Below, piece by piece: positions 20,370-23,643 of a stretch of DNA of 44,650 nt. The notes beneath the pieces are model-generated. The model saw nothing but the letters and a program-made list of their open reading frames with translations, searched no databases and was not told the DNA's origin. The translations under genes and the position numbers were made by a program. Every line of letters begins with the position of its first letter. Position 1 is the first letter of the stretch. Location: the NCBI GenBank assembly GCA_035697485.1, contig DASSCU010000035.1:1-44650 (forward strand). The letters are read 5' to 3'. Source of the stretch: Actinomycetota bacterium. Lineage in GTDB: Bacteria > Actinomycetota > UBA4738 > HRBIN12.

Positions 20370-20723
20370 ATGTTCGAACTCCTCGCCCAGGAATCATCGG
20401 GAGGCGGCAGCCTGGTCGCGTTCCTGCCGCTGCTGCTGATGGGCGTCATCTTCTACTTCCTGCTCATCCGGCCGCAGCAACGGCGAGCCCGCGCGCAGCG
20501 GGAGCTGCTGAGCAGCGTGGAGGTCGGTGACGAGGTCGTCACCACCTCCGGCATGTTCGGCACCGTGATCGACATCGACGAGGAGGACGACATCCTGACG
20601 CTCGAGATCGCCCCCGGAACGCGCGTGCGCATCCTGCGAGCGGGCATCGGTCGCATCGTCGTCGACGAGGCGATCGAGGGAGACGCGCCCGACGGCCAGG
20701 ACGGGCCGTTCCAGCAGACGTGA
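20370..20723 (+). CDS. yajC: Preprotein translocase accessory subunit YajC
   Basis: This 117-residue protein has a single membrane helix (LLLMGVIFYFLLI), the diagnostic RPQQRRARAQ after it, and a cytoplasmic SH3-like domain VEVGDEVVTTSGMFGTV. YajC associates with SecDF. The gene heads the yajC-HD-secD-secF operon; its stop overlaps the next start (GTGA). The acidic C-terminal tail is ordinary. Confidence 0.94.
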   Translation: MFELLAQESSGGGSLVAFLPLLLMGVIFYFLLIRPQQRRARAQRELLSSVEVGDEVVTTSGMFGTVIDIDEEDDILTLEIAPGTRVRILRAGIGRIVVDEAIEGDAPDGQDGPFQQT

Positions 20724-21517
20724 TCGGCGAGCCAGATCCGGCGGACGGCGTCGTGTCGGGAGAGACGAGCGACGCATCGACGGTCGTCGCGTCCGACACG
20801 ACGCCTGAGCCCGCCCCCTTGCCCGTCGAGCCGGTGCCGCCGACCGGCGTCGACGTCGCGACGATCACCCTCGAGGACGTCCAAGCCAACGAGGAGCTTT
20901 CGCGTTTCATCGCATCGGCCGACCGCGTGATGGACGCGATGGGGTTCACCGAGCACGGCTTCCGCCACGCCAACCTCGTGGCGCGCATCTCCTATCAGGT
21001 GCTCTCACGGCTGGGCTACGGCGAGCGTGACGCGACCCTCGCCTGCGTGGCGGGGTACCTGCACGACGTCGGGAACGCCCTCGCCCGGGACGCACACGGC
21101 CAGACAGGCGCCGTCCTCGTGCACCACGCGCTCCGAGACTCCGTGGCCGCGGCCGACCTGATGCCGATCATCGCCGCGATCGCCAACCACGAGGAGACGG
21201 AGGGCACCGCGGTGTCGCCGATCTCCGCGGCGGTGATCCTGGCCGACAAATCCGACGTGCATCGCAGCCGCGTGCGGACCACCGGACAGATCGATCTCGA
21301 CATCCACGACCGGGTCAACTACGCCGTGGAACAGTCGTTCCTTCGGGTAGACTCCGCTGCCCGCACCGTCAGCCTCGAGCTGACGATCGACACGGGCATC
21401 AGTCAGGTCATGGAGTACTTCGAGATCTTCCTCGGACGGATGCAGCTCTGCCGCGTCGCGGCCGAGCACCTCGATGCTCGCTTCCGCCTGGTCGTGAACG
21501 GGGCGGAACTGGCGTGA
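20720..21517 (+). CDS. HD-domain phosphohydrolase in the Sec operon
   Basis: This 265-residue protein has a disordered N-terminus rich in Thr, Ser, Pro and Val (about 1-45). An HD metal-dependent phosphohydrolase domain follows: HGFRHANLVAR, then GYLHDVGNALAR, then HH, and a late Asp in ILADKSDVHRSRVR. The tail (about 185-265) appears to be a small beta-rich domain. No membrane segment is seen. The domain could act on nucleotides or cyclic nucleotides; nothing fixes the substrate. It is translationally coupled on both sides (GTGA with yajC, 4-base overlap with secD), so expression is tied to the Sec machinery. Confidence 0.8.
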   Translation: MIGEPDPADGVVSGETSDASTVVASDTTPEPAPLPVEPVPPTGVDVATITLEDVQANEELSRFIASADRVMDAMGFTEHGFRHANLVARISYQVLSRLGYGERDATLACVAGYLHDVGNALARDAHGQTGAVLVHHALRDSVAAADLMPIIAAIANHEETEGTAVSPISAAVILADKSDVHRSRVRTTGQIDLDIHDRVNYAVEQSFLRVDSAARTVSLELTIDTGISQVMEYFEIFLGRMQLCRVAAEHLDARFRLVVNGAELA

Positions 21518-23643
21518 AGCGGACCCGCGGCCTCTGGGCCTCGATCTTCTTCGTGCTCGCGCTGACGCTCGCGTCGCTGATCGGGTTCGCGACCGGGGCG
21601 TTGCAGCCGATCCTCGGACTCGACCTCGAAGGGGGAGTCTCGGTCACGCTCTCGGCGCCCGACGGCACGCCCACCGAGGTGATGGAGCGGGCACGCACGA
21701 ACATCTCGAACCGGGTCGATGCGTTCGGGGTCGGTGAGCCCGACATCGCTGTCTCGGGCAACACGATCGAGGTGCAGATTCCCGGTCTGGCCCAGGGCAC
21801 GATCGAGCAGCGGGCGGAGACCAGGTACTGCCTCGTCGGTCCTGATGGCGAGAACTACGGGTGCGCCGCTTCGCAGCAGGCCGCCGACGATGCGCTGGCC
21901 GAGCTGACGGTCGTGCCCCAGGTCGCCGAGGCGTGTCTCATCGGTCCCGACGGCGAACAGGTGGAGTGTTACGCGACGGAGGAGCTTGCCCAGGCCTCGA
22001 AGGCGGCGATCACGGTCGCTCCCCGAGCCGACGTGACACCGACCGCCACGCCCGGCGCGTCTGCGTCGCCGGCAGCGACCGAGGACGGCTTCTGCCTGGT
22101 GAGTGCGGCGGGGGAACAGCTCGACTGCTTCCCGACGAAGAAGGAGGCGGAGGCCGCCCAGAAGGCCCTTGAGATCGAGGTGACGGAGCGGACGTACTGC
22201 GTGACGGATGGCGAAGGGAAGGGCGCGACCGAGGAGCCGACGACCTCCCCGTCGCCTTCGGCCTCGGTCTCACCATCGGCGTCGCCGTCGCCCGAGCCGA
22301 CCGCCTTCTCGGGCCTTTCGTTGGGAGCCAACGGTCTCCCGTGTGGCCTGGCGTCGAAGGACGCTGCCGCTTCGGCGATCGACGACACACGAGTGGAGAC
22401 GGTCGAGGCGCTCTTCTGCGTGGTCAGCTCAGCCGGCGAGAACCTCGGGTGCTACATCGACCGAACCTCGGCCGAGGAGCGGCGACGGTCCACCGGGCAG
22501 CAACGGCTGCTCGACGTGATCGGTCAGACCGCACGCCTCGAGGAACGACCCGTGCTCGCGATCGTCCCTCCCGGCGACCCGGCCTACTCCACGACGCCGG
22601 TGACCTGCCCCACCGACGAGGATCGCCAGACGAAGGAGTGCTCGTTCTCCGCGCTGGAAGACCAGGAGGCCGTCTACGAGGACGAGGCCGGGAACCGGTA
22701 CCGCCTGGCGCCGGCAGTCATCGCCGGCGGCGACGTCGCCGAGGCGAACGCGATCCTGGGCGGTGCGACCGGGTCGGAGTGGACCGTCAACTTCCAGCTC
22801 ACCGGCGATGCCGCCGATCGGTTCGCCGAGGCCACGACGACCGCGGTATCGTTGCCGCCGCCGCAGAACCAGATCGCGATCGTCGTCGACCGGGTCGTCA
22901 TCTCCGCGCCGACCGTCCAGAGCCCGATCACCGGCGGCACCGGCGAGATCACCGGTGGGTTCGCCGAGGCGGAGGCACGCGACCTTGCGACCGTGCTGAA
23001 CGCGGGCGCCCTGCCCGTCGAGCTGACCCGCCAGCAGGTGCAGACCGTGAGTCCCACGCTCGGCTCCGAGTCGCTGCGCCAGGGCATCGTCGCCGGGCTC
23101 GTCGGACTCGCGTTGCTCCTCCTCTACCTGCTCTTCTACTACCGGCTCCTCGGCATCGTGGCATGGTTCGGCATGACGATCTGGGCGATCCTCGCGATCG
23201 CGCTGATCTCGCTCGCGGGCGTCCAATTCGGGTACGCGCTCACCCTGGCGGGCGTCGCCGGGCTCGTGATCTCCCTCGGGGTGACCGCCGACTCCTACAT
23301 CGTGTTCTTCGAGCGGTTGAAGGACGAGGTGAGGGCGGGCAAGAGCGCCCGTGCGGCGGTGCAGCCGGCCTTCGCCCGGTCGTACAAGACGATCATCGCG
23401 GCCGACGTCGTCGCGGGGATCGCCGCGGTGGTCCTGTACCTCACCGCGGTGAGCTCGGTGCGCGGGTTCGCCCTCACCCTCGGCGTGGCCACGCTGCTCG
23501 ACCTGTTCGTCGTGTACTTCTTCAAGCGGCCGACGGTGTTCCTCGTCGCCCGGAACCAGCGCCTCGTCTCGCTCAAGGGATTCGGGCTCGAGGCGGGGGT
23601 CGCCGGTGAGGCCGACGACGCTGCCGAGGGAGCGGGAGCGTGA
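21514..23643 (+). CDS. secD: Protein translocase subunit SecD with cysteine-pair insert modules
   Basis: SecD uses the proton motive force to help complete export through SecYEG. This protein has 709 residues, longer than typical SecD of about 550-615. The N-terminal helix (about 8-28) and the GLDLEGGVSVTL motif are canonical, as are the C-terminal membrane domain (from about 522; GVTADSYIVFFERLKDE) and the P1 head (AEANAILGG ... ISAPTVQSPITGG). Between residues 105 and 376 the P1 domain is expanded by repeated modules, each with two cysteines 10 residues apart, and by two Ser/Pro/Thr-rich linkers (about 173-190 and 240-263). All 12 cysteines of the protein are in this region. It starts with GTG. 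Confidence 0.93.
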   Translation: MKRTRGLWASIFFVLALTLASLIGFATGALQPILGLDLEGGVSVTLSAPDGTPTEVMERARTNISNRVDAFGVGEPDIAVSGNTIEVQIPGLAQGTIEQRAETRYCLVGPDGENYGCAASQQAADDALAELTVVPQVAEACLIGPDGEQVECYATEELAQASKAAITVAPRADVTPTATPGASASPAATEDGFCLVSAAGEQLDCFPTKKEAEAAQKALEIEVTERTYCVTDGEGKGATEEPTTSPSPSASVSPSASPSPEPTAFSGLSLGANGLPCGLASKDAAASAIDDTRVETVEALFCVVSSAGENLGCYIDRTSAEERRRSTGQQRLLDVIGQTARLEERPVLAIVPPGDPAYSTTPVTCPTDEDRQTKECSFSALEDQEAVYEDEAGNRYRLAPAVIAGGDVAEANAILGGATGSEWTVNFQLTGDAADRFAEATTTAVSLPPPQNQIAIVVDRVVISAPTVQSPITGGTGEITGGFAEAEARDLATVLNAGALPVELTRQQVQTVSPTLGSESLRQGIVAGLVGLALLLLYLLFYYRLLGIVAWFGMTIWAILAIALISLAGVQFGYALTLAGVAGLVISLGVTADSYIVFFERLKDEVRAGKSARAAVQPAFARSYKTIIAADVVAGIAAVVLYLTAVSSVRGFALTLGVATLLDLFVVYFFKRPTVFLVARNQRLVSLKGFGLEAGVAGEADDAAEGAGA
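21826..22641 (+). repeat. Cysteine-pair module array within SecD
   Basis: Protein-level repeats occupy residues 105-376 of SecD. The consensus is [FYA]C[LV][VI][GS]xxGExxxC[FY]x[ST]xxxA. Copies have cysteines at 106/117, 141/152, 194/205 and 302/313, always with 10 residues between. A fourth copy (229/277) is interrupted by the Ser/Pro-rich linker. A final, more diverged pair, 365/376, keeps the 10-residue spacing. The even number and fixed spacing suggest disulfides outside the membrane. Confidence 0.8.

Follow-up and report, generated by a model that had tools for sequence, protein, structure and literature searches.

An actinobacterial family encodes a SecD whose extracytoplasmic P1 domain carries, in its base, five tandem β-β-α modules, each with its own pair of cysteines, in an array that is fixed in the clade and probably akin to a mini-domain found among phage head genes. 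The array was identified in the 44,650-nucleotide stretch of DNA analyzed here (the window), contig 35 of a 96%-complete MAG, and was compared across 27 genomes of the class, all from one order and four families (f1 to f4), with the window belonging to f1. This clade-fixed SecD variant is undescribed as far as the literature was searched, and that search returned no account of a SecD with such an array.

The gene product is, as judged by sequence models and fold comparison, a bona fide SecD. It scores 307.9 bits against TIGR01129 (cutoff 244.4), and its P1 head (SecDF_P1_head), SecD_SecF_C, and SecD_1st domains all exceed the Pfam cutoffs; a Foldseek search matched it to SecDF (5yhf) with an E-value of 9e-22, and the gene lies in an operon with yajC and secF. 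An HD-domain gene (PF01966; positions 20720–21517, + strand) is found between yajC and secD, with a 4-base overlap with each. A homologue is located immediately 5′ of secD throughout the order, in each of its four families, as well as in several other Actinomycetota (53–56% identity; L031, L050, L053, L059, and L085).

As the first-pass annotation had stated, all 12 cysteines of the protein (residues 106, 117, 141, 152, 194, 205, 229, 277, 302, 313, 365, and 376) fall within residues 106–376, with 10, 23, 10, 41, 10, 23, 47, 24, 10, 51, and 10 residues between successive ones. Random placement of 12 cysteines in 271 residues gave five equal gaps in 43 of 200,000 simulations, a post hoc comparison. 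The Cys-rich stretch is an insertion, since the Pfam match for the first half of P1 ends at residue 93 and the best stretch of the SecD model starts at residue 329; canonical SecDs have about 15 residues at this site. The module unit, [YF]C[LVI]V-x3-G-x2-[LY]GC[FY]-x-[ST]-x3-A-x2-A-L, is of β-β-α type and recurs with a period of 35 residues. Six cysteine-pair modules had originally been proposed: the repeat is real, and the interrupted pair 229/277 belongs to it as module 4, but C365/C376 does not, as the module profile misses this pair and no Ala helix follows it. The window SecD is thus composed of five modules, four of them with exactly 10 residues between the cysteines, and one unrelated cysteine pair with the same spacing. 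The latter, ahead of the P1 head, is an independent second pair conserved in f1 and also in f2, where a Ser/Pro linker splits the equivalent cysteines; a P1 cysteine pair 21–23 residues apart is present in many further actinobacterial SecDs.

Table 1. Features of the window secD gene and of its inserted array (window coordinates; residue numbers refer to SecD).
Feature	Coordinates	Strand	Description	Basis
secD	21514..23643	+	709 aa; GTG start overlaps stop of upstream HD-domain gene	ORF call
Whole inserted array	21793..22497	+	residues 94–328, between P1-base strand IEVQIPG and helix LLDVIGQTA(RL)	alignment
Module 1	21817..21921	+	C106-x10-C117, β-β-α; AF2 strands 96–108, 114–118, helix 121–129	profile match
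Module 2	21925..22026	+	C141-x10-C152; AF2 strands 131–143, 149–153, helix 156–165	profile match
Linker A, Ser/Pro/Thr	22015..22083	+	between modules 2 and 3; low pLDDT at 176–178 and 184–187	
Module 3	22081..22185	+	C194-x10-C205; AF2 strands 193–196, 202–206, helix 209–217	profile match
Module 4	22189..22395	+	C229...C277, Ser/Pro linker in place of hairpin turn; AF2 helix 282–291	
Linker B, Ser/Pro	22213..22326	+	inside module 4; pLDDT <50 at 235–263	
Module 5	22408..22509	+	C302-x10-C313; best conserved; the sister families have their one module at this site	
C365-x10-C376	22606..22641	+	separate P1 loop pair, not a module	

With a module profile built from other genera only, modules 1, 3, 5, and 2 of the window scored 50, 46.6, 37.1, and 31.6 bits, respectively, against 10.6 bits for the best of 500 shuffles of the array, which bears out the earlier remark that the residues around the cysteines also repeat. 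Module 4 reaches only 9.6 bits with this profile because it is interrupted. When the tested position was left out of the profile, modules 1, 2, and 3 were weaker yet retained (36.5, 18.7, and 38.5 bits), while modules 4 and 5 dropped to 10.1 and 11.5 bits, so that the membership of these two rests on their position, their cysteine pairs, and the sister-family module. By its sequence relatives, module 4 (C229/C277) is a genuine module: it is a plain Cx10C in G009 (L018), where the five modules follow in tandem without linkers at a period of 34–35, and its cysteines are spaced x15–17 in G003, G005, G011, and G015. The Ser/Pro/Ala/Thr linkers vary in length among species, the module 4 loop ranging from 10 residues (G009) up to 70 (G002), and linker A is missing from G009 and G003. 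A profile search of the window's own genome found no other module protein (best non-SecD E-value 0.1).

In an AlphaFold2 model computed with 25 SecDs, each module is a β-hairpin followed by a helix, with block pLDDT values of about 85–94, in agreement with the duplicated mini-domains that had been proposed; both linkers are of low confidence and the remainder folds as SecD. The hairpin-helix units were again predicted when the array was modeled alone. The second cysteine appears to close the hairpin opened by the first, as a cross-strand disulfide would.

That the intramodule pairs form disulfides outside the membrane, as first suggested, is likely, and the cysteine parity of exported proteins supports it. 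An even number of cysteines is accepted as an indication of oxidative folding. Among 28 predicted soluble exported proteins of the window genome, 19 contain cysteine, with 18 even counts against 1 odd, compared with 103 even and 117 odd in cytoplasmic proteins (p = 4e-5); the sample comprised about 335 kb of genome stretches plus the window, possibly more, and a simple in-house rule for signal peptides served to assign exported proteins. For actinobacteria, the oxidative folding of such proteins is treated in PMC9974433 and PMC12421883. Dedicated oxidases are patchy across the MAGs of the class: VKOR was found in 5 of the 27 genomes and a Thioredoxin_4 DsbA-like protein in 8, neither of them in the window's 96%-complete MAG, which has a weak DSBA-family match only. 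The strong even-cysteine bias of exported proteins (G000, L237–L269) is seen despite neither VKOR nor a Thioredoxin_4-type DsbA being found in the MAG.

All five modules and all twelve cysteines are present in 15/15 f1 genomes with a complete secD (an apparent gap at Cys277 in L013 is a shifted alignment column), so the array is anything but absent from close relatives. A single module occupies the same site in f2 (G017) and in f4 (G019, G021, and G025), and the SecD of f3 (G018) has none; f2 and f3 are represented by one genome each and f4 by three. A profile search of 396 Actinomycetota genomes detected the array nowhere else, and none of the outgroup SecDs examined has even one module. With the array left out, a SecD tree was calculated on the membrane part plus the latter half of the head. 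It recovers the order (support 100/99), with f3 outside the rest (99/81), f2 next, f4 beside f1 (93/77), and f1 itself (99/98). Taken with the distribution, the tree indicates as the simplest history that one module was gained after the f3 split and that five were present before the f1 radiation. The nearest relative of 54 of 55 modules is the same position in other genomes, not another module of the same genome, and this grouping by position implies that the five copies predate the family. Clade-wide presence with variable copy number had been named at the outset as support for a real module, and families with 0, 1, and 5 copies bear it out. Pairwise identity is 35–38% for modules 1–4, 50% for module 5, and 78% for the SecD membrane part, module 5 being the slowest-evolving module. 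For the lone module of f2 and that of f4, the position-5 profile gives the highest scores (30.7–34.4 bits), position 3 nearly tying for f2 (32.4 against 32.6 bits). We hold the anatomy of the array and its 0 to 1 to 5 history with high confidence.

The resemblance to short phage cysteine-pair motifs, mentioned in the first-pass annotation, is real. The best non-SecD match of the module profile is a 52-residue prophage protein (MIVKRGKEWCVISHRTGKNLGCYPTEKEAKERLGQI...) encoded directly behind a portal-like gene. Its phage relatives are common; they occur as standalone proteins, N-terminally in prohead proteases, at portal-gene ends, and beside a terminase-like gene, and they match phrog_3684 and phrog_2859 (down to 4.6e-9), both families of unknown function. 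Aligned with hhalign, the phage and SecD-module profiles match over 30 columns (Prob 98, E-value 2e-13). Conversely, a phage-derived profile (A4) run against the 396 genomes retrieved SecD modules in nine f1 genomes (best 6.5e-8), chiefly module 5, as well as prophage copies in G201 and G382. Module 5, the slowest-evolving of the five, is taken as the founder. Foldseek gave short matches to small phage proteins, with r.m.s. deviations of 0.4–0.6 Å and weak E-values. The phage link is seen only with profiles, as a BLAST-type search with one SecD module against phages gave nothing. Searches of the module profile against Pfam, PHROGs, and the PDB yielded nothing significant, a Foldseek search of the array against the PDB gave no match, and the SecD modules match no PHROG model better than E 0.017, that match being neither phrog_3684 nor phrog_2859. 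The SecD modules lie in a SecD context, whereas the prophage copies adjoin portal or terminase genes. Kinship of the two kinds of module, as opposed to convergence, is probable from these sequence comparisons, convergence being possible for a module as short as about 30 aligned residues; the transfer would have run from phage to SecD. The phage mini-domain itself (GKNLGCYPTKxEAxxRLxQVxxFKH; L165 1456–1614; L271 1429–1626; L183–L193) is very common and of unknown function, and its two cysteines are mostly present together or absent together. Among the weaker hits, small-subunit-like proteins of aconitase/isopropylmalate isomerase (L170–L172 and L174) matched weakly across the phylum over a Cys-helix stretch only and were set aside as chance, and inspection of a stretch of G005:C42 (E-value 6.4e-4) gave no clear module protein.

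Taken as a whole, the explanation that we consider best, at about an even chance, is that SecD captured a phage-type mini-domain, which was multiplied and stapled to form an arm at the exit of the translocon. A single β-β-α mini-domain of the phage head-gene kind would have been inserted between the P1-base strand and helix in the ancestor common to f1, f2, and f4, and in the f1 ancestor it would have been duplicated in tandem to five modules and then fixed. Each module would be closed by a cysteine pair at the hairpin ends, most likely as a disulfide formed outside the membrane. The stapled modules may make up a stiff, protease-resistant arm, partly hinged by the Ser/Pro linkers, which would project from the moving P1 domain beside the SecY exit and could provide a spacer or a holding surface of low specificity for the chains that SecDF pulls out. 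The array is placed on the base of P1, next to the head; P1 is considered critical for stimulating transport (PMC9508474), and the periplasmic domains of Escherichia coli SecDF have been proposed to bring the chaperone SurA to the site of exit (PMC9987972). Across the family, the net surface charge varies from −28 to +11 with the cysteines invariant. This variable surface charge speaks against one specific ligand, and the combination of fixed copy number and cysteines with free charge points to a structural arm, a generic surface for holding, or a spacer more than to a specific receptor. The holding or spacer function is tentative, and we consider it rather unlikely that the full proposition holds, namely that a phage head-gene mini-domain, now a five-module disulfide-stapled arm, handles polypeptides at the translocon exit.

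Neutral accretion is a strong rival to such a working arm, although somewhat unlikely in our estimate: the insert would be tolerated ballast without selected function, its cysteines kept only for the folding of the modules. The fast divergence, the free charge, and the Ser/Pro insertions within module 4 all agree with it, as does the lack of any matching cysteine change in SecF or YajC, both of which are devoid of cysteine. Pure ballast would be expected to lose or gain copies, whereas exactly five modules are kept in 15/15 SecDs despite the low identity of modules 1–4. Ordinary P1 variation, with cysteines scattered in normal P1 loops, or a misassembly is already refuted; P1 length does differ among actinobacterial SecDs, but the same five-module array recurs across 15 separately assembled genomes with intact reading frames, its repeat profile is far above shuffles, and its insertion point is precise. 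It is very improbable that the pairs sense redox state, as had been suggested, that they pass disulfides on to exported proteins, or that they bind metal. The invariance of the twelve cysteines and the patchy oxidases of the class could be read in that sense; against it, there is no CXXC motif, cysteines at both hairpin ends fit a structural pair, their invariance is that of structural disulfides, and no His, Asp, or additional Cys that could act as a ligand is conserved in the module. A thiol-disulfide oxidoreductase was likewise rejected, the cysteine spacing being at least 10 throughout and the units β-β-α, not a thioredoxin fold.

The strand order of two adjacent modules in the AlphaFold2 model raised the question of a SPOR-like contact with the wall, in which neighboring modules would pair as β-α-β-β-α-β units, bind peptidoglycan glycan, and tie the translocon to the wall. 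The period of 35 residues and the order of strands and helices in two neighbors correspond to the SPOR topology, SPOR is the top Pfam match of the compact G009 array (E-value 0.052), and there is a structural match over 28 columns (r.m.s. deviation 0.6) to a phage protein of 44 residues whose annotation names a SPOR domain. The score is, however, 14.3 bits at best against a curated gathering score of 21, the SPOR model is silent on SecD in all 27 genomes of the class, no SPOR structure appears in the Foldseek results against the PDB, the surface charge is not conserved, and in families that have only one module, it could not make up such a pair by itself. Membership in SPOR (PF05036) was rejected, as the array is below cutoff with no significant profile or fold match, and we regard wall contact of this kind as improbable. 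Assignment to CHASE8 (PF17152) was also discarded (20.0 bits over modules 1–2, 27-bit cutoff).

The domain composition of core Sec components is generally regarded as conserved. In this clade, a module was added to the exit-side domain of SecD and then amplified, and the copies are locked in across f1. As copy-number intermediates with 0, 1, and 5 modules are all extant, the effect of added P1 mass on the SecDF pulling cycle can be tested directly. The finding suggests a flow of phage mini-domains into host core machinery, and it provides a profile for a phage module that is very common and has no assigned function. If phage capture and chain handling are both true, the array would be a working component, derived from phage and confined to this lineage, of a machine that is otherwise universal.

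Compared with known systems, a pair of modules resembles SPOR (PF05036) in having two 35-residue halves with a like strand-helix order, and the likeness to the CHASE8 sensor domain, to which modules other than 1–2 have no match, probably stems from Ala-rich helices. The phage mini-domain (xWCVxSxxTGKNLGCYPTKxEAxxRLxQVxxFKH) has the same length as the SecD module, the same hairpin-helix layout, and the same GxxLGC(Y/F)xT motif, and in many members its cysteines are 10–11 apart, as in the SecD modules. The phage copies are single, lie within or next to genes for portal, terminase, or prohead protease, and often lack the cysteines, unlike the SecD copies, which are tandem, extracytoplasmic, and always possess both cysteines. 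With the SecD/SecDF translocation motor (TIGR01129; Thermus SecDF, 3AQP and 5YHF), the window SecD has in common the membrane part, the P1 base, and the P1 head, as well as the gene order ruvCAB-yajC-(HD)-secD-secF-apt-rel; it differs from canonical SecDF by about 235 added residues that form five modules in the P1 base and by an additional cysteine pair ahead of the P1 head.
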